64,000 bases of DNA, taken from assembly GCA_035623075.1 (NCBI GenBank), contig DASPUC010000023.1, positions 1 through 64,000 on the forward strand, read 5' to 3'. The position numbers and the translations under genes were made by a program. The notes below the pieces were generated by a model that was not told where the DNA came from, made no database searches, and saw nothing but the letters and a program-made list of their open reading frames with translations. This DNA is from Nitrospiraceae bacterium. GTDB taxonomy: Bacteria; Nitrospirota; Nitrospiria; Nitrospirales; Nitrospiraceae. Shown in pieces: positions 2,785 through 62,887 of this stretch (the stretch's first letter is position 1; each line of letters opens with the position of its first letter).

Positions 2785-3633
2785 ATGGCAAGATGGCGAC
2801 CACGGCGGACGGTGCGTGTAGTCTCTCGTTTCCACGAGTCGCAAGAAGGTCTTCGCGCATCGCTGCGGTCCGAAGAGCCGCAGCGGCTTTCCCGGCACGT
2901 CGAAGACAGCTATACCGCCCTTCGTCGACACTGTGTCGATCATTCCAGCCTTCTTTGTCTGGGGCGCCTCCTCAACCGATTAACCCATCACGATCCCGGT
3001 GTCCAAGAATCCGCATTAGCCGAACTCGAACTCGCCATACAACTGATTCGTGTGGGGACCAGGGTCAGGTTCCTGCCAGAATCCCAGGCGAGGACCGCCG
3101 ATCTCGAATGTCATCTCGGCAGAGACTGCTTCTTTGTGGAAGTCACAGCCATGGTCGGCTCGGCAGAACGGCGACGGCTTCCCCTCCGTGGTCTGATGGA
3201 TGAGGCGGAACAGGGGAAGGAGGAGGACCGCGGCGTGATTCTCGTCCATCGGATTCTCGCCAGGATTTCGCAGAAGGCCAAACAGTTCGCGGATTATTGC
3301 TACCCGGTGATTCTCAGCATCTCGATTCCGCGAGCAGATTTGAAAGGATTACGCCAGAGCAGGCGGGAGGAGATCAGGTTGGATCTCAAGAATCTTTCAG
3401 GGGCAGTTACGCTGCTGTTGCAGACGGTGCCGCATCTGAGCGCCGTGTTGATCGCCTTATGGGATGTCATGCCGCTGCCGGCACAGGCTGCAACCAGATT
3501 GGCCAATGTGGAGTTCGTAGAGCGGACGAAGTACCAGAAAGGATATCCACGAGTCCGCTTGCTGATTGAAAATCCCGGTGCCATGGCAGCGCTGACTGAA
3601 CAACAGAGCGAAGCGTTCCGACAGCTTTTGTAA
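2785..3633 (+). CDS. Hypothetical protein with a possible PD-(D/E)XK-like core
   Basis: A basic protein of 282 residues. Around residues 108-125 it shows an acidic residue pair in a strand (ADLECHL) followed by a hydrophobic strand carrying a glutamate (FFVEVTA), which resembles the D...E-x-K/T core of PD-(D/E)XK nuclease-like domains. The canonical lysine is replaced by threonine, so activity is uncertain. The N-terminal third is arginine-rich and the C-terminal half is alpha/beta. It follows the preceding hypothetical gene with a 3-nt gap. The nuclease-fold idea is inference from a weak motif and would need profile comparison. Confidence 0.6.
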   Translation: MARWRPRRTVRVVSRFHESQEGLRASLRSEEPQRLSRHVEDSYTALRRHCVDHSSLLCLGRLLNRLTHHDPGVQESALAELELAIQLIRVGTRVRFLPESQARTADLECHLGRDCFFVEVTAMVGSAERRRLPLRGLMDEAEQGKEEDRGVILVHRILARISQKAKQFADYCYPVILSISIPRADLKGLRQSRREEIRLDLKNLSGAVTLLLQTVPHLSAVLIALWDVMPLPAQAATRLANVEFVERTKYQKGYPRVRLLIENPGAMAALTEQQSEAFRQLL

Positions 3634-3690
3634 TGCAATTCTCCGAACACAGACGTCCTCGTGAGGGAAACTGGAGAGGATGGTGTTTGA

Positions 3691-4008
3691 CTAGGTCCGC
3701 AGGGAGCTGGCGAGTGCTTCGAGGTTCTTCGTCACCATGGCATCGCCGTTGTTGGTAGAGACGTTGATGCCGCTTGTGCACACCGCACGACATTCATCGA
3801 TGCGTCCGAGTTTGTGAAGCGATTGGGCCAGTGCAAAATAGGCGGCAGAATAGCTGGGCTTGACCGTGACACATTGTTGGAGGGCCTTGGCGGCTTCGTC
3901 AAAATTCCCATCCTCCATATAGGCTTTCCCCAATCCGAACCAGGCCACATCGTCATTCGGATCGATTGCGAGAACTTTCTTTAATGGCTCGATTCGTGGA
4001 TTGGGCAT
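3691..4008 (-). CDS. Small TPR-repeat protein
   Basis: About 105 residues composed of two to three tetratricopeptide repeats. The pattern W-xx-LG-xx-Y-x7-A-x3 is clear in the segment GLGKAYMEDGNFDEAAKAL, and a second repeat follows (YFALAQSLHKLGRIDEC). The start is the ATG at 4006-4008 because a strong ribosome site (AGGGGG) lies 5 nt upstream; a longer in-frame extension has no such site. It is probably a cytoplasmic adaptor involved in protein-protein contacts; the partner is unknown. Its promoter region overlaps that of the divergent amidohydrolase gene. Confidence 0.8.
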   Translation of the reverse strand: MPNPRIEPLKKVLAIDPNDDVAWFGLGKAYMEDGNFDEAAKALQQCVTVKPSYSAAYFALAQSLHKLGRIDECRAVCTSGINVSTNNGDAMVTKNLEALASSLRT

Positions 4009-49752: not shown

Positions 49753-49885
49753 CAGTCCGATCAACGAGATAGACCGATCTCGCCATTAGCTATCAGCGAT
49801 CAGCCATCAGCACTCTGCTTGTGTCATACGCGATACGCCATACGCTCTGGCTCCCTCGGCCAGCAGCACTCAGCACTTTCGGGTC
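49753..49885. repeat. Period-7 repeat block with a conserved leader
   Basis: An AATACGTGCATT phrase lies near 49732, then CGAGATAGACCGATCTCG (a 6-bp palindrome) at about 49766, then period-7 units of AGC-type (AGCTATC, AGCGATC, AGCCATC) and CATACGC-type. The same leader and order recur at about 56485. No gene is visible. Confidence 0.75.
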
Positions 49886-52419: not shown

Positions 52420-52560
52420 CTCACGTGCCGCAAGCTCTCAGCCATCAACTCTCAGCTCTTTGGTCGTGCCATACGCGATAAGCCATAAGCTCCTATCTGC
52501 AGTTCCCGTTCGTGCCATACGCTATACGCCATACGCTCGTATCCGCAGTTCCCGCCAGTC
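52420..52560. repeat. Period-7 repeat block after the kinase gene
   Basis: Units of CACGT-type, AGC-type (AGCCATC, AACTCTC, AGCTCTT) and CATACGC-type follow one another, including GCCATACGCTATACGCCATACG near 52520 (given in part). It separates the kinase from the convergent secreted protein gene. No gene is visible. Confidence 0.75.
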
Positions 52561-54287: not shown

Positions 54288-54578
54288 ATGAGTATCCGGC
54301 AATTGCTCCGGTCTAAGAGAAGGAAAATTCTTGAGATTGCCGCGCGCCATGGGGCACGGAAAGTGCGTGTGTTTGGATCGGTGGCGCGGGGAAAGACTCG
54401 GCGAGGAAGCGACATCGACCTCCTGGTTGAGATGGATGAAGGCCGGAGCCTGCTCGATCATGCCGCACTCATTCTCGACTTGGAGCGTTTACTCAGGCGC
54501 CCGGTCTACGTGGCTTCGGAACGGGGGCTCCGTCCACCCGTCCGGAAACAAGTGTTGAAAGACGCGATCACCTTATGA
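54288..54578 (+). CDS. mntA: MNT-type nucleotidyltransferase antitoxin
   Basis: A 96-residue protein (ATG at 54288; GTG at 54285 also possible) with AGGAGG upstream. The nucleotidyltransferase signature GSVARGKTRRGSDIDLLVE has the G-S-x(10)-S-D-x-D pattern. MntA-type antitoxins modify HepT toxins with AMP. Its stop overlaps the start of the hepT frame (ATGA), the standard arrangement. Confidence 0.92.
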   Translation: MSIRQLLRSKRRKILEIAARHGARKVRVFGSVARGKTRRGSDIDLLVEMDEGRSLLDHAALILDLERLLRRPVYVASERGLRPPVRKQVLKDAITL

Positions 54579-54928
54579 GGGATGATCGCTAGCGCATTCA
54601 AGACATTATCGACGCGATTAAACGGATCGAACGCTATGCGAAGCGTGGCCGGCGCGTCTTCGAGGAAGACGAACTGGTCCACACATGGATGATTCACCAC
54701 ATTCAGATCATTGGCGAAGCAGCCAGCAAGCTCACCCCTCCCTTCCGCAAAACGCATCACGGCATACCGTGGCCCCAGATTATCAAAATGCGCCATGTCT
54801 TGGTTCATGACTATTTCGGAATCGATCTGGCCGAAGTCTGGGCCGCTGTGGTACGGGACCTGCCCACCCTCAAGAAACAAATTAGTAACATCCTCAAGCG
54901 CCCGACCAAGCGCCCGTCAAAGAACTAA
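54575..54928 (+). pseudogene. hepT: hepT toxin gene with a nonsense codon at position 6
   Basis: The full 117-codon HepT frame runs from the ATG at 54575, overlapping mntA, to a TAA at 54928, except for a TAG at 54590-54592. Before it the codons read MRDDR and after it RIQDIIDAIKRIERYA, where family members usually have glutamate at the stop (GAG to TAG). The R-x4-H toxin motif RHVLVH is intact. The next ATG is at 54689, which would remove about 38 residues. The toxin is probably inactive unless the stop is suppressed or is an assembly error. Confidence 0.85.
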
Positions 54929-55337
54929 GCTGACATTCCCCCCCCCTTGCCCCTCCCTCGACTGGGCTCGGCCTGCGACGAGCTCCCCTCGACATGCTCG
55001 GGGCCTGAGCTGGTCGAAGGCAGTCGAGTCGGACGGTGAGCCGCCCATCGACTTCGCTCAGGGCTGTGAGCTTGTCGAACGGTCAAACCGTCGAAGGGCC
55101 TCACGTCTCGCAAGCTCTCAGCTCTTTGGTCCTGCCATACGCTATAAGCCATACGCCATACGCTCTTGCTTCCCGGCCTTCTCACTCCTTACTTCTCACT
55201 GTTCACACCGCGTTCCACTCGCCTCGCCCAACGCCTCGTAAATACTTCCATTTCGGCCTCCTTCCGTTGATTTCGCGGAGTGAAAACGGTATCTCCATGC
55301 ACGCTGAAAAATGCGCTGTACAGGCCGGGGAGGGAGT
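54929..55337. repeat. Gene-free gap with REP-like and period-7 repeats and an ORF6N leader
   Basis: From about 54950 to 55105 several inverted GTCGAAGG/CTTCGAC-type units occur (CTCGACATGCTCGGGG, GAGCTGGTCGAAGG, GACTTCGCTCAGGGC). From 55105 to 55200 period-7 CACGT-, AGC- and CATACGC-type units follow. From 55236 a phrase AAATACTTCCATTTCGGC and the following bases match the leader at about 58160. No gene is visible. Confidence 0.75.
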
Positions 55338-55855
55338 ATGGGTGTACTGATACCTCGCGAGCAAATTGAGCAGAGAATCCTCGTGATCCGGGGTCATCGG
55401 GTCATGTTGGATTCGGATTTGGCTTCTCTGTATGGAGTCACAACCTTCAATCTCAACAAGGCCGTAAAGCGAAACATCGATCGGTTCCCGGAAGACTTTA
55501 TGTTTCAATTAGCGACCGAAGAAGCCGCGGCTTTGAGATTCCAAATTGGAATATCAAAGAGCCAAGGAAGGGGAGGACGGCGATATCCACCTTATGTTTT
55601 CACAGAACAAGGTGTGGCCATGCTCTCTGTGTGCTGAGGAGCAAACGGGCTATTCAAGTCAACATCGCCATCATGCGCGCATTCGTGAAGCTCCGCGACC
55701 TCGCCGGAAGCCATAAAGAGTTGGCAGCCAAATTGCAACAACTCGAACGAAAAGTTGGTGGACATGACACGCAGATCCGATCCCTCTTCGAAGCCATCCG
55801 CCAGCTCATGGAGCCGCCCCCGCCGAAATCCCGCCGCATCGGATTCAAGACGTGA
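55338..55855 (+). pseudogene. ORF6N-domain (KilA-N-like) gene, frameshifted
   Basis: The first frame encodes an ORF6N domain ([25 protein letters not shown], given in part; [28 protein letters not shown]) and ends at a TGA at 55635-55637. The rest of the protein ([19 protein letters not shown], then a coiled coil and [11 protein letters not shown]) continues in the other frame. Joining the frames near 55626-55632 restores the family sequence, so one base is missing or gained there. ORF6N proteins are found in phages and as chromosomal orphans. A GGGAGG site precedes the ATG. Confidence 0.85.
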
Positions 55856-55918
55856 AGGGAAGCGATCACGCCTTCCAAAGCTGCCGCTTGAACAACAGGA
55901 TTGAATTAGCGTATATAC

Positions 55919-56218
55919 ATGAATACGTTTGCCTGGGATATCGCCAAAGCGATAGCCAACTTTGAAAAACACGGTGTTCCGTTTGAGGAAGCAGCCACCG
56001 TCTTCGGTGATCCCGACGGAATGGACGGGGTAGATGCGGCGCACTCGACACATGAGCATAGGCGCCAACGCATCGGGCAATCGGTGACAGGCCGTATTCT
56101 GTTTGTCGTGTATACCGTGCGGAGGATCGCCCATGAGAAGAAAACGACGCTTCGCATCATCAGCGCCAGGCAGGCGAGCCGGCGCGAGCGTGAAGCATAT
56201 GCCGGATTCAGAGATTGA
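55919..56218 (+). CDS. brnT: BrnT-family type II toxin
   Basis: A 99-residue protein of the BrnT family: FAWDIAKAIANFEKHGVPFEEAATVFGD (given in part), then a strand with R-x-x-x-I-G and IRIISARQASRRERE near the C-terminus. BrnT is an RNase-like toxin that blocks translation. The toxin comes first, as usual, and overlaps the antitoxin gene by 20 nt. There is no clear ribosome site. Confidence 0.93.
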   Translation: MNTFAWDIAKAIANFEKHGVPFEEAATVFGDPDGMDGVDAAHSTHEHRRQRIGQSVTGRILFVVYTVRRIAHEKKTTLRIISARQASRREREAYAGFRD

Positions 56219-56429
56219 TTTCTCCGATATTCCCGAACTGACCGAGGCAGAGCTCAAACGCATGCGTCGGGTCGGCAGACCGTCCACCGGCATGGCCAAG
56301 CAACTGATTGCGATCCGGCTCTCACCGCGTCTGCTTGCTCAGCTACGGAAGATGGCAGCGAAGCAGAAGAAACCGTATCAGACGCTCATCCATGAGCTCT
56401 TGGAGAAAGCCGCCTCACACGCCGCGTGA
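56199..56429 (+). CDS. brnA: BrnA-family antitoxin
   Basis: A 76-residue protein from the ATG at 56199; a GTG at 56190 is an alternative. It has an acidic N-terminal part (MPDSEIDFSDIPELTEAEL, given in part) and a ribbon-helix-helix C-terminal part (KQLIAIRLSPRLLAQLRKMA, given in part). It is expected to bind BrnT and repress the operon promoter. Confidence 0.92.
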   Translation: MPDSEIDFSDIPELTEAELKRMRRVGRPSTGMAKQLIAIRLSPRLLAQLRKMAAKQKKPYQTLIHELLEKAASHAA

Positions 56430-56637
56430 CATCGTGTGTTTGGTTCTTCTGGTTTATGCGGTTTGTTTCGTGCGTTTGGTCTGATCAACGAGATAGACCG
56501 ATCTCGCTCTTAGCGATCAGCCATCAGCTCTTTGGCCCTGCCATAAGCTATACGCTATAAGCCATAAGCTCTTGCTCCCTCGGCCATCAGCTCTCAGCAC
56601 TCCGCACTTCCGGCCCGCGTGCCGCCGTCTAATCCGC
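56430..56637. repeat. Period-9 and period-7 repeat block after brnA
   Basis: Period-9 units run first (TTTGGTTCT, TCTGGTTTA, TGCGGTTTG, TTTCGTGCG), then CGAGATAGACCGATCTCG at about 56489, the same phrase as at 49766, then AGC-type and CATACGC/AAGC-type period-7 units. No gene is visible. It sits between convergent genes. Confidence 0.8.
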
Positions 56638-57045
56638 TTACCACGGCGTCCCATCTCGTTTTGTAATCAGGACCGTCCGAGCCCTATCCTCCTGGTCGTA
56701 CGTGACGACGGCTCGTCCTTCTGATCCTTGCAGCGCAGTCAATTCCAAAGGCCACAGGACCAACTCAGCAAGTCCGATCGTGAACAGATCCGCAGCGACA
56801 TAAGGAACGATGCGTAACTTTGATGCGCCGTGATTCCCGTCGATAAACTCGTACACCTCGGTCCGCTCATTCGCCTTCGCCACGTCACTGGTCTTTGGCG
56901 TCCCAAACACCGACATCACCTGAGGACGGGTACTACCGACCTTCACTTGGTCGACCGGAACGGACGGTGGCGCCGTCGCGGCTTTATAGATCGAACAACC
57001 TGGTGCTGCGAATCCCATCAGTAGGAGCGCAATGATCAGTCTCAT
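56638..57045 (-). CDS. Lipoprotein with BamE/SmpA-like domain
   Basis: About 135 residues from the ATG at 57043-57045, preceded by AGGAGGTGGG. A signal peptide ends in AAPGC, a lipobox. The segment VKVGSTRPQVMSVFGTPKTS matches the SmpA/OmlA-type beta-alpha unit. The second half carries a hydrophobic segment (about 80-100). It closely parallels the gene at the right edge of the window, which suggests two paralogues. It is probably an outer-membrane lipoprotein. Confidence 0.8.
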   Translation of the reverse strand: MRLIIALLLMGFAAPGCSIYKAATAPPSVPVDQVKVGSTRPQVMSVFGTPKTSDVAKANERTEVYEFIDGNHGASKLRIVPYVAADLFTIGLAELVLWPLELTALQGSEGRAVVTYDQEDRARTVLITKRDGTPW

Positions 57046-57449
57046 AACCCACCTCCTGCTCTTTGTCAGAGCACCTTCACAACTCAATCTCCGAATGGAA
57101 ACACCTCGCACCAATCTAATCGGCATAAATCGTGCCGTCTGGCAGAAAAATGGATGAGCTCAGAATTTCTAGGAAATTAGGAAGGGGAGGATCTGAGACA
57201 GAAAGACGAGATGAATCTGAATTGATTCCTGCCCGAATCTCGTTCGATTCTCAGGCACTTTTGGCGTCATTGGCTATCGGCCATCAGCTATCAGCTCTTT
57301 GCTCGTGCCATACGCTCTTGTCGGCGCTTCATGCCTCACGTCCTTGACACCAGCCCCATCGTTATTCAGTTGGATGACTTTCGTCCTAGAGTGCGCTAGA
57401 CTCCGACCCGATGGTATGAGACCGCAAGCAGGGCAGGGGTCATGACAGA
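57046..57449. other. 404-bp gap with a period-7 block
   Basis: The left side holds the lipoprotein promoter region. A frame at 57132-57347 is open but has no ribosome site, no domain, and runs into repeats. From about 57270 period-7 AGC-type units (GGCCATC, AGCTATC) and CATACGC/CACGT-type units appear. The right end shows nothing of note until the DUF4258 gene. Confidence 0.55.
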
Positions 57450-57737
57450 ATGAGTCAATTTCGCCTGGTCTTTCGGGTCCATGCGATTCAGCGGATGTTT
57501 CAACGCAGGATCAGCAAGGAAGAAGTGAAACAGGTGATTGCAACTGGGGAAACCATTGAAACCTACGCGACGGATAAGCCCTTTCCCAGTCGACTCATAC
57601 TGGGATGGAGTGGATCTCGACCCATACATGTCGTGGCGGCTGACGATGCTCATGCCCAAGAAACAATCATCGTCACGGTGTATCAGCCAGATGCTGTAGA
57701 GTGGGAAACCGGATTCAAGAGGAGGAAGCCTCGATGA
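57450..57737 (+). CDS. DUF4258-family protein, probable toxin
   Basis: A 95-residue basic protein: FRVHAIQRMFQRRISKEEVKQVI (given in part), then GETIETYA, LILGW, and IIVTVYQPDAVEW. The R-M-x-x-R-x-I pattern fits DUF4258. It is coupled by a 4-nt overlap to a YgiT-type zinc-finger protein, a common pairing that is probably a toxin-antitoxin module. Activity is inferred. Confidence 0.85.
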   Translation: MSQFRLVFRVHAIQRMFQRRISKEEVKQVIATGETIETYATDKPFPSRLILGWSGSRPIHVVAADDAHAQETIIVTVYQPDAVEWETGFKRRKPR

Positions 57738-57961
57738 TGTGTGTGATTTGCAAGACTGGCGAGACACAGCCTGGTACAGCCACGGTGACGCTCGAGCGTG
57801 ACGGGGCAACAGTCGTAATCAAAGGAGTCCCGGCGCGCGTGTGTAAGAATTGCGGGGAAGAATACGTTGAAGAAAGCGTCACCTCTCATCTGTTGAAGAC
57901 GGCCGAAGAGGCGGTGCGTGCCGGGGTCCAAGTGGACGTCAGAACCTACGCAGCTGCCTAG
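57734..57961 (+). CDS. YgiT-type zinc-finger (MqsA-like) antitoxin component
   Basis: A 75-residue protein from the ATG at 57734. CVIC and CKNCGEEY near residues 3 and 40 form a zinc finger, as in MqsA-type antitoxins, and a short helix follows. The DNA-binding HTH of full-length MqsA is absent. It overlaps the DUF4258 gene by 4 nt. Confidence 0.85.
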   Translation: MMCVICKTGETQPGTATVTLERDGATVVIKGVPARVCKNCGEEYVEESVTSHLLKTAEEAVRAGVQVDVRTYAAA

Positions 57962-57964
57962 TAC

Positions 57965-58140
57965 CTTCGGCCTCTCGCCTTACGCCTCACGTCTTACGTT
58001 TCGCGTCCTTCCCCTTGCCCCTTGCCTCTCGCCTGCCCTGTTCTTAGCTATCAGCCATCAGCTATCAGCTGTCAGCTCTCAGCACTTCCGAGCCGCCTCC
58101 CGTCTTCTGTCTCATTCCTTCTCACTTCTCACTTTCAACA
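57965..58140. repeat. Period-7 repeat block, best example in the window
   Basis: From 57976: CGCCTTA, CGCCTCA, CGTCTTA, CGTTTCG, CGTCCTT, each 7 nt. From 58046: AGCTATC, AGCCATC, AGCTATC, AGCTGTC, AGCTCTC, AGCACTT. Between them lie CCTTGCC-type repeats. The two runs are back to back with different unit types but the same period. No gene is visible. Confidence 0.85.
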
Positions 58141-58149
58141 GGCACCCAA

Positions 58150-58330
58150 CCCCTCGCAAATACTTCTATTTTGGCTATCCCTCCGTTGATTTCGGTCAAT
58201 GAAAACTGTATCTCTCTGTGGCCTCGGGGATACACCCCACATACTGAGAGAGGAGCATGCTCGCTGTGGTACCTCGCAGGCAGATTGAACAGACGATCAA
58301 GGTCACAAATAGTGACCTAAAAATCATGCG
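58150..58330 (+). pseudogene. Remnant of a second ORF6N gene with its leader
   Basis: AAATACTTCTATTTTGGC at about 58160 and the following 40 nt match the leader of the ORF6N gene at 55236 (AAATACTTCCATTTCGGC), including a GTTGATTTC phrase. Then a start-like region encodes VVPRRQIEQTI, which matches [12 protein letters not shown] of the gene at 55338. After about 20 codons the similarity ends and the frame is soon lost. It is a truncated duplicate. Confidence 0.7.
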
Positions 58331-58408
58331 TGGACAGGAGAGATTGTGGGACTGAAACGGATTTTCATGCTACCCCGTGCCGCCCGAATTCACCGCATAA
58401 TGGTGGAG

Positions 58409-58437
58409 TTGACATTATGTCAGATATGACATACGAT
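58409..58437 (+). promoter_or_regulatory. Promoter with palindromic operator for the RelE/XRE module
   Basis: A consensus -35 box TTGACA at 58409-58414 is followed after 17 nt by TACGAT at 58432-58437. Between and over the -10 lies the inverted repeat TATGTCA-GATA-TGACATA (58416-58433), perfect in both arms. It lies 24 nt before the toxin start. It is likely the operator of the XRE protein encoded second in this module, which would give autorepression. Confidence 0.75.
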
Positions 58438-58460
58438 CTTGTTCCGAAACAGGTTGGTGT

Positions 58461-58814
58461 GTGAGGAGATCCAGAGGAGACAAACCTCTGGTCTGGCTCC
58501 GGGGTGAGGTCAAAACACCGCCTTTTTCCCAAGCTGGGCGACTCGAAGCAGGATATCTCCTCAGATTATTGCAACAAGGAGAATCGCTTGGGCTTCCGCA
58601 CTCACGGCCTATGCCGGTCATCGGATCACGATGTCATGAATTGCGCATTAATGACGAGGCCGGCACGTTTCGCATCATATATAGGGCGGATACCGACGCG
58701 GTTGTCATCCTCGATGTCTTCATGAAGAAGACACCGCAGACACCACAATCGGTCATTGCATCCTGTAAGCGCCGACTCCGCGAGTACGAGCGACAGGGTG
58801 AGGGAGGGGAGTAA
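58461..58814 (+). CDS. Gp49-like RelE/HigB-type toxin
   Basis: A 117-residue protein with a GTG start. It matches the phage-derived Gp49/RelE group: KPLVWLRGEVKTPPFS, then LGLPHSRPMPVIGSRCHELRI (given in part), RIIYRADTDAVVIL and a terminal helix with KK-x-PQTP. Such toxins cut mRNA. It is followed after 2 nt by an XRE antitoxin gene, the toxin-first order of HigBA. Confidence 0.93.
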   Translation: MRRSRGDKPLVWLRGEVKTPPFSQAGRLEAGYLLRLLQQGESLGLPHSRPMPVIGSRCHELRINDEAGTFRIIYRADTDAVVILDVFMKKTPQTPQSVIASCKRRLREYERQGEGGE

Positions 58815-58816
58815 CC

Positions 58817-59158
58817 ATGAGGAAAAGAAAACGTGCAAGCTTGGAAGCCGCAGGGTGGGCAGTAGGATCGGTAAAGGAGTTTCTCGGCCTGTCTGAAGCC
58901 GACGCGGTCTTGATTGAAATGAAGCTGGCCCTCAGCCGTAGCCTTCGGGACCGGCGAAAGAAACATGGTCTGTCACAGGTTCAGCTCGCTGAACGACTCC
59001 AATCGAGTCAATCTCGGGTTGCCAAAATGGAAGCGGGGGATCCCTCAGTCTCAATGGATCTCCTCGTCAGCTCGCTGCTCCTGCTCGGAGCCAGCTCGAC
59101 CGACCTTGCCAAAGCCATTCGGGGCGAAGGCCGAAGCAAGAACGGACGTGCCGCATAA
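58817..59158 (+). CDS. XRE-family HTH antitoxin (HigA-like)
   Basis: A 113-residue protein with an HTH region at about 47-98: LRDRRKKHGLSQVQLAERLQ, SSQSRVAKMEAGD. An N-terminal extension (about 1-30) carries FLGLSEADA, common to antitoxins of this type. It should bind the toxin and the operator at 58416-58433. It lies 2 nt after the toxin gene. Confidence 0.93.
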   Translation: MRKRKRASLEAAGWAVGSVKEFLGLSEADAVLIEMKLALSRSLRDRRKKHGLSQVQLAERLQSSQSRVAKMEAGDPSVSMDLLVSSLLLLGASSTDLAKAIRGEGRSKNGRAA

Positions 59159-59590
59159 TCCTTGCCCCTCGGCTCGGCTCTTTCCTCTCACTCCTGGCTT
59201 CTCACTTTTCACTGTTCACATCCCGTCTCGCACGTCCCGCCGAGCGAATACGTGCATTTCATCTTGCCTTGGAGAGAAGAGCCTATGGCCAATGGCTTAT
59301 GGCACAGGCAGTGGGAGAAACACGGGCCGCTCTTTGTTCGTGCTATAGGCCATACGCTCTTGTTCCCTCCGCCATCAGCTATCAGCCATCAGCTCTTTGG
59401 TCCTGCCATACGCCATACGCTCTTGTCGGCGCTTCACGCCTCCCGGCCACGTCCCTAGGGATTCGCCTAGCCTCCTTTCGGAGAATTGCTTTCTTTCGCC
59501 GAAAAAGGTAAGGGATTCGGCTTGAATACTGGGATTTCTCGTGGAAAAAGGTATTCTTCGGCGCGTTGTTGGTCTTAAGAGGAGCCTCTC
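59159..59590. repeat. 432-bp gap with repeats before the four-gene operon
   Basis: It includes a GAATACGTGCATTTCATC phrase at about 59247, period-7 AGC-type and CATACGC-type units (about 59340-59430) and a TCGGCGCTTCACG phrase matching that at 57327. From 59465 to 59590 the sequence is unlike the repeats and should hold the operon promoter, but I see no convincing -35/-10 pair. No gene. Confidence 0.65.
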
Positions 59591-59941
59591 ATGGATCGTA
59601 TGGAGACGGTCATCAAAGAGATTCGAAGATTCATCGCCGAACGAGACTGGAGCCAATTTCACGATCCCAAAAATCTCGCTATGGCGGTGGCCTCTGAAGC
59701 TTGAGAGCTATTGGCTGAGTATCGATGGATATCGAACACCGAAGCGGACCAACTTACCAAGAGCAAAGATAAACGTGCGCAGGTTGCAGCGGAAGCAGCT
59801 GATGTTGGAATCGCTCTCCTCCTTTTCTGCGACAGAATTGGCGTGGACCTGATTGATGCTATTCGAACCAAGATGGTGACGAACTCTCACAATTACCCCG
59901 CTGATGAATCAAAAGGCAAAGCCGAAAGACCTAGGAAATGA
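59591..59941 (+). pseudogene. MazG-like nucleotide pyrophosphohydrolase gene, interrupted by TGA
   Basis: The frame from the ATG at 59591 (AGGAG upstream) reads VIKEIRRFIAERDWSQFHDPKNLAMAVASEA (given in part), then TGA at 59702-59704, then ELLAEYRWIS and later AAEAADVGIALLLFCDRIG, to 59941. This is the MazG-like family, which hydrolyses NTPs or dNTPs. The stop falls inside the metal-binding E-x-x-E motif, most likely GGA to TGA. A TTG at 59711 could restart but would lack the first metal glutamates. First gene of the operon; it overlaps the next by 4 nt. Confidence 0.8.
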
Positions 59942-60864
59942 GACTCTGGGTCGGTGTGACGGACGGAGATTGGTATCGGTATCTCAGCAAGCGTCCAGAC
60001 CTCGATGAAGTGAATTTCTGGCAGCCAGGAGGAAATCGCGAGTTTAGTGCGCTCTCTCCTGGCGAATTGTTCCTTTTTAAGCTGCATTACCCCGAAAATA
60101 TGATCGTGGGCGGTGGCTTCTTTGCTACGTCCTCAATTCTTCCATGTAGTCTCGCTTGGGAAACCTTTGGTGAGAAGAACGGAGCCAACACCTATGCGGA
60201 GATGAGGCGCCGCATTGAAAAGTATCGAAAATCGGAGCCCCAGCCGCACGAAGATTACAAAGTTGGATGCATCATCGTTGAGCAGCCATTCTTTCTTGGG
60301 AGATCAACTTGGATCGCTGTCCCATCGAGTTTCGCGAAGAACATAGTTTCAGGAAAAAGATATGACATCGCATCGCAGGATGGGAGAGAGCTGTGGGAGT
60401 CAGTTCAAACCGCACTAAGAGCACAGGGTGTGTCCAATCAATATGCGTCAGATAGCCCGAGACCCGTCTATGGCGAGTCCGTTCTTATTACACCCCGTAT
60501 TGGGCAGGGTGCATTTCGTGTGATGGTGACGGATACGTACGAGAGAAGGTGTGCTATCACAAAAGAAAGAGCCTTACCCGTGCTTCAAGCGGCCCATATC
60601 AAGCCGGTGGCAGAGGGTGGCCAACATCGAATCGACAATGGCCTTCTTCTCCGATCCGATGTGCATACCTTGTTTGACCGAGGCTATCTAACGGTGACAC
60701 CTGATTACACGGTGCAAGTGAGCCGCCGTTTAAAGATGGATTTCGATAATGGCGAACATTATTTCCAGTTGCAAGGAACGAAAATATGGGTGCCACCTCA
60801 TCTCAACGACCAACCCAGTCGAGAAGTCCTAGAGTGGCATGCTGATACCGTGTTTATGGGATGA
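59938..60864 (+). CDS. PUA-like domain fused to HNH nuclease
   Basis: A 308-residue protein. The N-terminal part (about 1-160) resembles PUA/EVE-like folds that read modified bases: WVGVTDGDWYRYL, LSPGELFLFKLHYPEN, IVGGGFFATSSILPCSLAWE. The C-terminal part (about 190-260) is an HNH_2-type nuclease: RRCAITKERALPVLQAAHIKPVAEGG (given in part), IDNGLLLRSDVHTLFD. Modified-base-dependent nucleases of this layout are known. It overlaps the mazG-like frame by 4 nt and precedes the next gene by 3 nt. Confidence 0.85.
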   Translation: MRLWVGVTDGDWYRYLSKRPDLDEVNFWQPGGNREFSALSPGELFLFKLHYPENMIVGGGFFATSSILPCSLAWETFGEKNGANTYAEMRRRIEKYRKSEPQPHEDYKVGCIIVEQPFFLGRSTWIAVPSSFAKNIVSGKRYDIASQDGRELWESVQTALRAQGVSNQYASDSPRPVYGESVLITPRIGQGAFRVMVTDTYERRCAITKERALPVLQAAHIKPVAEGGQHRIDNGLLLRSDVHTLFDRGYLTVTPDYTVQVSRRLKMDFDNGEHYFQLQGTKIWVPPHLNDQPSREVLEWHADTVFMG

Positions 60865-60867
60865 GTG

Positions 60868-61797
60868 ATGCCGTATATCTTCCTCGTTAATGAAACGAAT
60901 CGTCACATCTGTATCCAACACAGATTATTTGGGGTGCCTGCAACAGATCGCGCAAGGAGCCAGATCAGCAGCGTAGTCAAAGGTGACCAGCTATTTCTCT
61001 ATATCTATGGAACCGGGTTGTTGTACGGCCCGTTTAGAGCAGAATCTAATCTATTCCTGGAGAAATATCCTGAGCAAGGACCGTGGAACCTTTCACCCGT
61101 TGATAAGAAGCACGGCTACTATCCCTATCGCTTGCATGTCAGCACCGACGAGCTTCGGGGCCATGGTATCCCGTTCAAGAAAATCGAACGATTGAACATA
61201 GGTTTGAATACTGAACTTCTTCAACGGAAGAGCGTTGTATATGCGTCTCCCTTTCAAGCGCACATCTTTGAAGAGCTACTGCGCGATCTGCCAGTGGAAC
61301 GAGAGGTGGGACCCGTGGCAGAGAAGGATTTTTCTCACCTTGAGAGCATATACACGAGAACGGTGGAGGTGACCGACAGCCAAGAGAAAGCCCTGCAGCT
61401 TCTAGTTCAAAAAAACTTCGAACAGCTGGAGGAAGGAGTTAAGCCTGTCACATCTTACTTCAACGTGCAGTACGGCACAATTCGCGGGGAGATCGATATT
61501 TTAGGTCAAGACAAAGAGCGCAATTACGTTGTTACGGAGCTAAAAGCAGAAAACCTGAAGAAGGATATCTGGACCCAACTACTCACCTATTCCCATGTGA
61601 TTAGAGACATCTATGCCAAGCATGAAGGGGTAGAGGTGCGTACGTTCTTAATTTGTCCGGGCTTTGATCGCAGGACTTTCTATTCTTATCCTGAACTGAA
61701 GAAGCTTCTAAAAAGGCAAGAGTCTGTGCGTGTGTTCAAGTACGAGACGAATTTCAAAGACCGAATATCATTCGAAGAGATTCCGGTCACGATTTAA
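60868..61797 (+). CDS. EVE/YTH-like domain fused to PD-(D/E)XK nuclease
   Basis: A 309-residue protein from the ATG at 60868 (GTG at 60865 possible). The N-terminal part (about 1-110) has the EVE pattern: YIFLVNETNRHI, LFGVPATDR, VVKGDQLFLYIYGTGLLYGPF (given in part), YYPYRLHVS. The C-terminal part (about 165-290) has a PD-(D/E)XK core: GEIDILG and YVVTELKAE, giving D...E-x-K as in NucS/DUF91-like nucleases. It is expected to sense a modified base and cut nearby DNA. It lies between the HNH gene and the HNH-HIT gene. Confidence 0.82.
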   Translation: MPYIFLVNETNRHICIQHRLFGVPATDRARSQISSVVKGDQLFLYIYGTGLLYGPFRAESNLFLEKYPEQGPWNLSPVDKKHGYYPYRLHVSTDELRGHGIPFKKIERLNIGLNTELLQRKSVVYASPFQAHIFEELLRDLPVEREVGPVAEKDFSHLESIYTRTVEVTDSQEKALQLLVQKNFEQLEEGVKPVTSYFNVQYGTIRGEIDILGQDKERNYVVTELKAENLKKDIWTQLLTYSHVIRDIYAKHEGVEVRTFLICPGFDRRTFYSYPELKKLLKRQESVRVFKYETNFKDRISFEEIPVTI

Positions 61798-61828
61798 ACC
61801 TGTCGCCTGTCCCACATCGGAGACAGAT

Positions 61829-62812
61829 ATGACCTACAAACAACTCGTTGACTTTATTGAACGTCGTATGAGGATGTCGCATATCTACCAGCCCGTTATG
61901 CTCCTGACTCTGCTGCAGCACGACGGCGAATGCTCAGAGACCGACATTGCACGGGCTATCTCGATGCATGATCCAACCCAGATTGAATACTACGAAGCGA
62001 TCACAAGAAATATGGTCGGTCGCGTGCTGACCCGGCACGGAATTGTGAAGCGGGATGGCAAGCGGTTTAGTCTTCTGGCCGCACATTCACTTTCAAAGGA
62101 CCAACGTACTGAACTCCGACGACTACTGATGGCAAAGCTGGATCAATATATTGCAAAGCGGGGTGAAAGGATCTGGCAGCATCGCAAGCTGGCACTCGGC
62201 GACATCTCGGGAACCGTCAAATATGAAGTCCTAAAACGAGCAAGCACACGCTGCGAACTCTGCGGCATCTCGAACAGTGATCGCGCTCTCGAAGTTGACC
62301 ACATTGTTCCTAGGAACCATGGCGGCAGCGATGAAGTCGCCAATCTACAGGCTCTTTGCTAAAGCTGCAATTCGATGAAGCGTGATCGGGATGCCACTGA
62401 CTTCCGGGCGTTGCGCGAATCCTATGACCATCGCGAGGACACTTGCCCGTTCTGCGCTCGACAGAAAGCCGGTAACATCTCTCTGGAGAACGAACTGTGT
62501 TTTGGAATCAAGGATGAATACCCGGTGACTGATTTCCACATGCTGGTCATCCCGAAGAGACACGTGTCGGATTTCTTTGAACTGTACGAGCCTGAAAGAC
62601 ATGCTTGTGTTCGGCTCTTAGACGAAGCAAAGCGCAGATCGAAGCAGCAGGATCCTACCATTGCGGGTTTCAATGTTGGCATCAACGTGGGCGAAGCCGC
62701 CGGCCAAACCGTTCATCATTGCCACGTCCATTTGATTCCTAGGCGAAGCGGCGATGTCGAGCAGCCTCGCGGAGGTGTGCGAAACGTCATTCCAGGCAAG
62801 GGAGCTTATTAG
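61829..62812 (+). pseudogene. HNH-HIT fusion gene, interrupted by TAA
   Basis: From the ATG at 61829 (CGGAGA upstream) about 177 codons encode a winged-helix-like N-terminal part and an HNH zinc site (CELCG, VDHIVPRNHGGSDE, NLQALC). A TAA at 62360-62362 then interrupts, and the frame continues SCNSMKRDRDATDFR, then a HIT domain (CPFC, HMLVIPKRH, HHCHVHLIPRR) to 62812. The stop falls between the two zinc cysteines, where relatives usually have tyrosine or lysine. The HIT half has an ATG at 62375. Last gene of the operon. Confidence 0.82.
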
Positions 62813-62887
62813 AAGTAAGGGAGAAGAAAAGGGGCCAGGCTACTTAATCGATAGGGTTAAGTCATCGATCATCTCGAGTCCGCCTTA

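Follow-up and report, generated by a model that had tools for sequence, protein, structure and literature searches.

The stretch of DNA analysed here (the window, 64,000 nucleotides (nt) of contig DASPUC010000023.1 from a Nitrospiraceae bacterium) carries, at positions 59591-62812, an operon of four genes, whose places we number slots 1 to 4: a MazG-like nucleotide pyrophosphatase, two predicted endonucleases that join a base-reading domain to a cutting domain, and a fusion of an HNH nuclease with a HIT domain. The four-gene set is a real unit, beyond what chance would give, and its slot 3 is an exchangeable position. Our evidence is about evenly balanced on whether the operon is a modification-dependent (type IV-like) restriction cluster with a pyrophosphatase that would remove modified deoxycytidine triphosphate (dCTP), one that recent damage has partly disabled here. 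The components of this reading differ in strength: slots 2 and 3 very probably serve modification-dependent restriction, slot 1 is probably linked to them functionally, and sanitation of 5-modified dCTP, as the specific task of slot 1, falls somewhat short of an even chance.

A same-order operon with a different third gene

Another genome of the same family (G806) carries on its contig C187 (locus L219) MazG, slot 2, a nuclease and HNH-HIT in the order of the window. In this locus, the MazG gene lies at 362-712 (78% identity to the window), slot 2 at 709-1634 (85%/73%), a gene for an EVE-HNH nuclease of 329 amino acids (aa) at 1792-2781 and an intact HNH-HIT gene at 2903-3886 (87%). The nucleotide similarity (blastn) falls into two blocks, the first of which joins window 59533-60862 to L219 302-1632 with 75% identity, starts 58 nt before the MazG start and is near-identical from GGTATTCTTCGGCGCG to the start codon, while the second covers window 61817-62814. 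Between these blocks the two loci are unrelated (L219 has there a 1258-nt segment with the EVE-HNH gene), and the homology ends at the borders of the slot 3 gene.

The slot 3 protein of L219 is a full-length homologue of VcaM4I, EVE domain included (E=8e-89 over the whole length). VcaM4I cleaves DNA containing 5-methylcytosine (5mC) or 5-hydroxymethylcytosine (5hmC), its variants have been tested for T4gt restriction, and its 5mC/5hmC pocket comprises Q10, T11, E15, W22, P24 and W82 (PMC7897488); in the alignment, all six positions are identical in the L219 protein.

Two predicted reader nucleases

All Pfam domain matches of the four proteins exceed the curated cut-offs. In slot 2, the match is to HNH_2 (PF13391, E=8e-12), the N-terminus having none. 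An AlphaFold (AF2) model built on an alignment of 46 relatives (predicted local distance difference test score, pLDDT, 89.1) was compared with the PDB by Foldseek; the best matches were VcaM4I (EVE-HNH, 4e-10) and TagI (SRA-HNH, 2e-5), followed by a Zymomonas ASCH domain (ZmASCH, template-modelling score 0.66 on the target), with ScoMcrA and EVE-type proteins among the weaker ones. Judged from this model, slot 2 is predicted to join a reader of the PUA superfamily to an HNH nuclease, which bears out the PUA fold that a preliminary description of this DNA had proposed for the N-terminus. Of the 70 columns in which at least 95% of its relatives agree, the window protein keeps 68. With VcaM4I (PDB 6yex) it shares the HNH half and a PUA-superfamily N-terminus, but by sequence the match is confined to the HNH half (residues 159-269, E=9e-9; 168-306 with a profile), and none was found between its N-terminal domain and the EVE domain of VcaM4I. 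Because its N-terminal half lacks EVE sequence homology, slot 2 is VcaM4I-like yet outside the VcaM4I family; its N-terminal fold is nearer to ASCH and, unlike slot 2, VcaM4I was described as a single-gene enzyme, without a pyrophosphatase operon (PMC7897488).

In the window, slot 3 combines an N-terminal DCD domain (PF10539, 35.0 bits against a cut-off of 27.8, E=1.5e-8) with a C-terminal NucS_C domain (PF01939, 31.0 bits against a cut-off of 24, E=2.8e-7), matches NucS in the PDB (E=5e-4) and has the active-site residues EIDIL...ELK. DCD is an EVE-like reader which occurs fused to PD-(D/E)XK nucleases (Bell, Wolf and Koonin 2020, PMC7641849), and slot 3 has exactly the architecture of the DCD-/EVE-PD-(D/E)XK type IV restriction enzymes predicted in that work; it differs in its NucS-type nuclease and its MazG partner, neither of which appears in the main text of that paper, and in having no close relative. 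Single-sequence scans, which detect close relatives only, yielded no full-length relative of slot 3 in 198 genomes of the phylum, 147 of the family, 247 and 299 of two other phyla, the 32 genomes with slot-2 relatives, plasmids, phages, viral contigs and genome contigs. Proteins sharing one half only were found in L002 and L003 (DCD with a methyltransferase) and in L161-L163 (another N-terminus with NucS), and a short stretch is shared with L237. As for the EVE-like fold previously suggested for this N-terminus, the curated DCD match supports it, while the single-sequence AF2 model (pLDDT 36) gave no fold usable for a search.

As a separate observation, L002 and L003 (1480-3322) carry DCD fused to a DNA-methyltransferase-like domain, as in Bell et al. 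2020; in L003, the fusion is followed by a 228-aa gene, possibly a nuclease.

A DCTPP1-like pyrophosphatase and a Nudix parallel

Slot 1 matches the MazG-like family PF12643 (E=7.5e-8) and is 72% identical to the gene of L081. The best PDB matches of its relatives are RS21-C6/DCTPP1 (E=2e-20; PDB 2a3q, 6sqw). DCTPP1 prefers dCTP and 5-modified dCTP, and eight residues of its pocket have been named (PMC4491611); RS21-C6/DCTPP1 and the E. coli enzyme Orf135 are both named as 5-methyl-dCTP hydrolases (PMC10742078). Six of these eight residues (W47, E63, E66, W73, E95 and D98), and with them the metal-binding ExxE...ExxD motif and the base-stacking W47/W73, are kept in six relatives and, apart from a stop codon described below, in the window copy. 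Slot 1 differs from RS21-C6/DCTPP1 in the remaining two (H38 and Y102), in its location in a restriction operon and in the interruption of the window copy.

An enzyme of another fold occupies a comparable place elsewhere. On a Sphingomonas plasmid (L318) an EVE-HNH gene is preceded, at a distance of 20 nt, by a Nudix gene whose product matches over its full length PDB 2rrk, a CTP pyrophosphohydrolase which we take to be Orf135; on a viral contig (L243), a Nudix gene product 54% identical to that of L318 precedes EVE-HNH. Two unrelated folds, MazG and Nudix, each including 5-methyl-dCTP hydrolases, are thus found beside modified-cytosine readers, and it is from this that we infer, tentatively, the sanitation of 5-modified dCTP.

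The HNH-HIT fusion

Slot 4 matches HNH (PF01844) and HIT (PF01230) and, besides its likeness to the intact L219 gene, is 86% identical to the gene of L236. The fusion recurs in 13 independent lineages (at <80% identity) with a conserved architecture of 327-350 aa and both HNH and HIT motifs, and the window copy keeps 85 of the 90 invariant residues; the family is without a name in the libraries searched. In the comparison with L219, the ratio of non-synonymous to synonymous substitution rates (dN/dS) is 0.07, with dS about 1, and is equal before and after an internal TAA codon; selection therefore maintained HNH-HIT until recently, and an old pseudogene is rejected. Three of the 13 lineages adjoin a modified-base-reader nuclease; in L171 EVE-HNH ends 20 nt before HNH-HIT, and in L185 an SRA-like HNH gene adjoins it. 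Full-length HNH-HIT is also found in 14 viral or prophage contigs, many copies being cargo of prophages or recombinase elements.

Searches of the four proteins with PADLOC and NCBIfam profiles gave partial HNH, HIT or nuclease-domain matches only, and no named multi-gene defence system fits. Among the partial matches is ThsC of Thoeris type II (PADLOC; PMC8565338), whose model matches the HIT half weakly (E=4e-8), but in slot 4 HIT is fused to HNH and no operon protein matches another Thoeris model. A Polaromonas plasmid (L078), annotated with an HNH beside a HIT gene, was also considered; its match to slot 4 is distant (47 residues, E=3.5) and lends no support.

In L183, L184, L186, L187, L188, L189 and L190, the HNH-HIT gene is cargo near large serine recombinases; directly after it stands a GIY-YIG protein (PF20815) in L187, and a GIY-YIG-looking protein follows in L184, L186, L188 and L190.

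Pairings in other bacteria

Neighbourhoods of slot 2 were examined by fetching 80 relatives from many phyla and searching their flanks with hidden Markov models (92 loci). MazG occurs in the flanks of eight of these loci, directly adjacent in six, with L070, L219 and the window in addition. It stands before slot 2 in the window, L081 and L219, after it in L082, L065, L068, L070 and L201, and divergently in L085, and on the slot-2 tree its presence changes at least four times. In L151 and L100 MazG and slot 2 lie farther apart on one longer stretch, separated by further genes (in L151, with a Schlafen-type helicase). EVE-HNH comes directly after slot 2 in L132 and L136, and MazG precedes EVE-HNH in L222. 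Pairs of slots 1 and 2, 2 and 3, and 3 and 4 (the last in L171) are each found in other bacteria. The preliminary description had left open whether homologues cluster outside this genome: they do, with all four slots in L219, MazG and PUA-HNH together at eight or more further loci, PUA-HNH with EVE-HNH in L132 and L136, and EVE-HNH with HNH-HIT in L171.

A further HNH_2 nuclease adjoins slot 2 in 10 loci, type I or ISP restriction genes are near in several, and its relatives neighbour HsdR/HsdS, ISP and C5-methyltransferase genes. A hypothetical protein encoded after slot 2 in Deinococcus NW-56 was considered as a MazG and rejected on its sequence.

Several arrangements in these loci deserve mention for themselves. 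A MazG-like gene followed by a Schlafen group 3-type helicase of 624-797 aa (PF09848) is a recurrent pair (L221:5093-7894, L222:5307-8126, L151:4712-6946), after which come a broken EVE-HNH gene in L222 and slot 2 in L151. PUA-HNH stands in tandem, in either order, with an HNH_2 protein of about 310 aa (motif PQRGIFKP) in L083, L091, L092, L121, L126, L141, L145, L147, L153 and L158. In L202 (2898-8052), a 451-aa slot-2 relative has an extra EVE-looking N-terminal domain; after it come a gene for a PLD-type nuclease and two genes that resemble DNA cytosine methyltransferases.

Operon layout and state of the reading frames

The features of the operon are collected in Table 1. The intergenic gaps are -4, then 0 or 3 (slot 3 starting at 60865 or 60868, depending on the start codon chosen) and then 31 nt. 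Coordinates, strand, order and gaps agree with the preliminary description, as do its domain assignments (MazG-like, HNH, EVE-like/PD-(D/E)XK and HNH-HIT by Pfam, the PUA-like N-terminus of the second gene by the structure model). It had, however, treated the four genes as intact and as a fixed set, and neither holds: the internal stops of slots 1 and 4 had been missed, and slot 3 is exchangeable, the window's own DCD-NucS protein having no full-length relative in the collections searched.

Table 1. Features of the operon, in window coordinates.
Feature	Position	Strand	Basis
Conserved leader 5' of the MazG-like gene	59533..59590	+	blastn, common to L219
Slot 1: MazG-like (RS21-C6/DCTPP1-like) nucleoside triphosphate (NTP) pyrophosphatase, stop-interrupted	59591..59941	+	PF12643
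In-frame TGA, codon 38 of slot 1	59702..59704	+	translation; sense codon in intact relatives
Slot 2: predicted PUA/ASCH-like + HNH_2 endonuclease, 308 aa, intact	59938..60864	+	PF13391, AF2, Foldseek
Exchangeable block, non-homologous to L219	60863..61816	+	gap between two blastn blocks
Slot 3: DCD (EVE-like) + NucS-like PD-(D/E)XK nuclease, 309-310 aa, intact	60865..61797	+	PF10539, PF01939
Slot 4: N-terminal domain + HNH + HIT fusion, 327 codons, stop-interrupted	61829..62812	+	PF01844, PF01230
In-frame TAA, codon 178 of slot 4	62360..62362	+	translation; sense codon in intact relatives
Downstream open frame, 145 aa, whole HIT domain	62375..62812	+	ATG 12 nt after TAA

The TGA separates the two glutamates of the metal-binding ExxE motif of slot 1, and the TAA splits the second CxxC pair of the zinc motif in the HNH domain of slot 4, leaving that motif incomplete; uninterrupted relatives of the two genes are found in L081, L219 and L236. 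Stop-codon reassignment was rejected as the cause of both internal stops, because slot 2 terminates with TGA and slot 3 with TAA, at the expected lengths. The two lesions are either recent or sequencing errors and, if both are real, the window would hold a partly dismantled system. The HIT domain could still be produced alone from the ATG at 62375, were translation to re-initiate there. Damage is frequent in related loci (slot 2 in L219, L068 and L070; EVE-HNH in L222). Rfam, promoter and terminator scans gave nothing useful.

The surrounding island

The region upstream of the operon (54288-59158) is rich in toxin-antitoxin gene pairs, as had been described: an MNT/HEPN-like pair at 54288-54922 (the start codon of HEPN is not clear), BrnT/BrnA-like genes at 55919-56429, a YgiT-type pair at 57450-57961 and HigB/HigA-like genes at 58461-59158, with an ORF6N-like gene frameshifted near 55622. 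HigA and BrnA have counterparts of 77-81% identity in L221, and there the island runs on to MazG and a Schlafen-type helicase. A dispersed intergenic repeat, with units like CCATACGCTATAAGCCATACGCTC / AGCTATCAGCCATCAGCTCT and copies 80-94% identical, occurs many times in this contig (in the window at 49782-49875, 52433-52553, 55113-55181, 56506-56605, 57269-57320 and 59329-59420), and also at L071:3602-4651.

Discussion

Slots 2 and 3 each combine, in a single chain, a predicted PUA-superfamily reader with a nuclease domain; in the mechanism that we propose, they would flip and read a modified base in incoming DNA (by analogy with VcaM4I, most likely a 5-modified cytosine) and then cut it. Slot 1 would hydrolyse 5-methyl- or 5-hydroxymethyl-dCTP, either recycled from degraded DNA or made by a phage, so that the mark is kept out of the host DNA, which would otherwise be a target of the nucleases, and is at the same time denied to the phage. 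Slot 4 may assist as a nuclease that also binds nucleotides through its HIT domain, and perhaps (this is a guess) clears nucleotidyl adducts at cut ends or hydrolyses nucleotides. The breaks in slot 1 and in the HNH part of slot 4 would not keep slots 2 and 3 from acting in this genome. The idea that the set detects modified DNA and also acts on the nucleotide pool had been put forward before; it is strengthened because the MazG is DCTPP1/RS21-C6-like.

Several observations weigh against this reading. Some MazG enzymes hydrolyse all NTPs. In the slot-1 family, H38 of DCTPP1 is replaced by I or L and Y102 by A, S, V, M or L, and a preference for 5-modified dCTP is therefore unproven. Most slot-2 genes have no MazG in their flanks, MazG stands beside Schlafen-type helicases without any reader in L221, and among 80 viral loci with EVE-HNH there is a Nudix gene in one and MazG in none. 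All four slots occur together in only one other genome (G806), with a different slot 3 and with one frameshift in slot 2; in the window two of the four genes are broken, slots 2 and 3 being open, and the AF2 model of slot 3 was too poor for a fold search.

It is also conceivable, although unlikely, that the nucleases carry out modification-dependent restriction and that MazG, instead of sanitising modified dCTP, is an effector or brake acting on metabolism at large, which depletes deoxynucleoside triphosphates or alarmone-type nucleotides during infection in an abortive defence. MazG families act broadly on NTPs (the M. tuberculosis enzyme accepts every canonical NTP; PMC10014863), MazG domains have been predicted for defence systems by a 2026 model that gives no substrate (PMC13092281), and the partnership with Schlafen-type helicases would suit such a role. 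The closest solved relatives of slot 1 are, however, specifically RS21-C6/DCTPP1, and an Orf135-type Nudix occupies the same place before EVE-HNH, which points to cytosine nucleotides.

We regard as equally unlikely that there is no functional unit at all, independent defence genes having piled up, co-oriented, in a toxin-antitoxin/defence island. The richness of the island in such genes agrees with this, as do the mostly separate occurrence of slot-2 and slot-4 relatives, the lack of relatives of slot 3, and loci such as L081 (slots 1 and 2 only) and G846 (slot 4 without the others, on a short contig); but L219 shares both the order and the leader, the pairing of MazG with slot 2 arose several times and in both gene orders, and the genes overlap or are spaced near zero. 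More improbable still is that HNH-HIT, perhaps together with the rest of the set, is a selfish element or cargo of phage origin (such as an HNH of the homing or packaging-associated type) and not host defence. The viral and prophage copies beside serine recombinases and GIY-YIG-type genes, and those between methyltransferase and terminase genes, would be expected of such cargo, but mobile elements frequently carry defence genes, reader nucleases neighbour three of the independent HNH-HIT lineages, and in L173 HNH-HIT lies among restriction- and defence-type genes.

Returning to the restriction cluster with a modified-dCTP pyrophosphatase, a wider suggestion, which at present we hold as possible and somewhat doubtful, is that it exemplifies an undescribed principle of self-protection, in which a modified-cytosine-reading nuclease with an exchangeable reader cassette (EVE-HNH or DCD-NucS) is paired with a dedicated 5-modified-dCTP pyrophosphatase. 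This enzyme would be MazG/DCTPP1-like in one set of lineages and Nudix/Orf135-like in another; no modified nucleotide, whether recycled or of phage origin, would then mark the host chromosome, and the phage would be deprived of such nucleotides. A known parallel is a MutT gene beside SauUSI-type restriction genes (PMC7641849, legend of Fig. 9), likewise a nucleotide pyrophosphohydrolase adjoining a restriction gene, but the enzyme families differ and it is a remark in a figure legend, with no function proposed. In the literature searched, which left most subscription journals outside its scope, no paper joins MazG with an EVE domain, type IV restriction or DUF2075, and the sole paper with both Schlafen and MazG deals with an unrelated subject.

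The exchange of one reader nuclease for another in slot 3, with the operon around it conserved, illustrates a way in which such systems may come to recognise a different modification, and the large number of broken copies suggests that these nucleases carry a cost, or are useful only at times. Modification-dependent restriction enzymes have no partner methylase and, to our knowledge, it has seldom been asked how stray modified nucleotides are kept from marking the host DNA. If the proposed principle is true, MazG or Nudix genes next to reader nucleases would be a concrete and easily tested answer to this problem of host self-marking, as well as a new kind of accessory gene to seek in defence islands.

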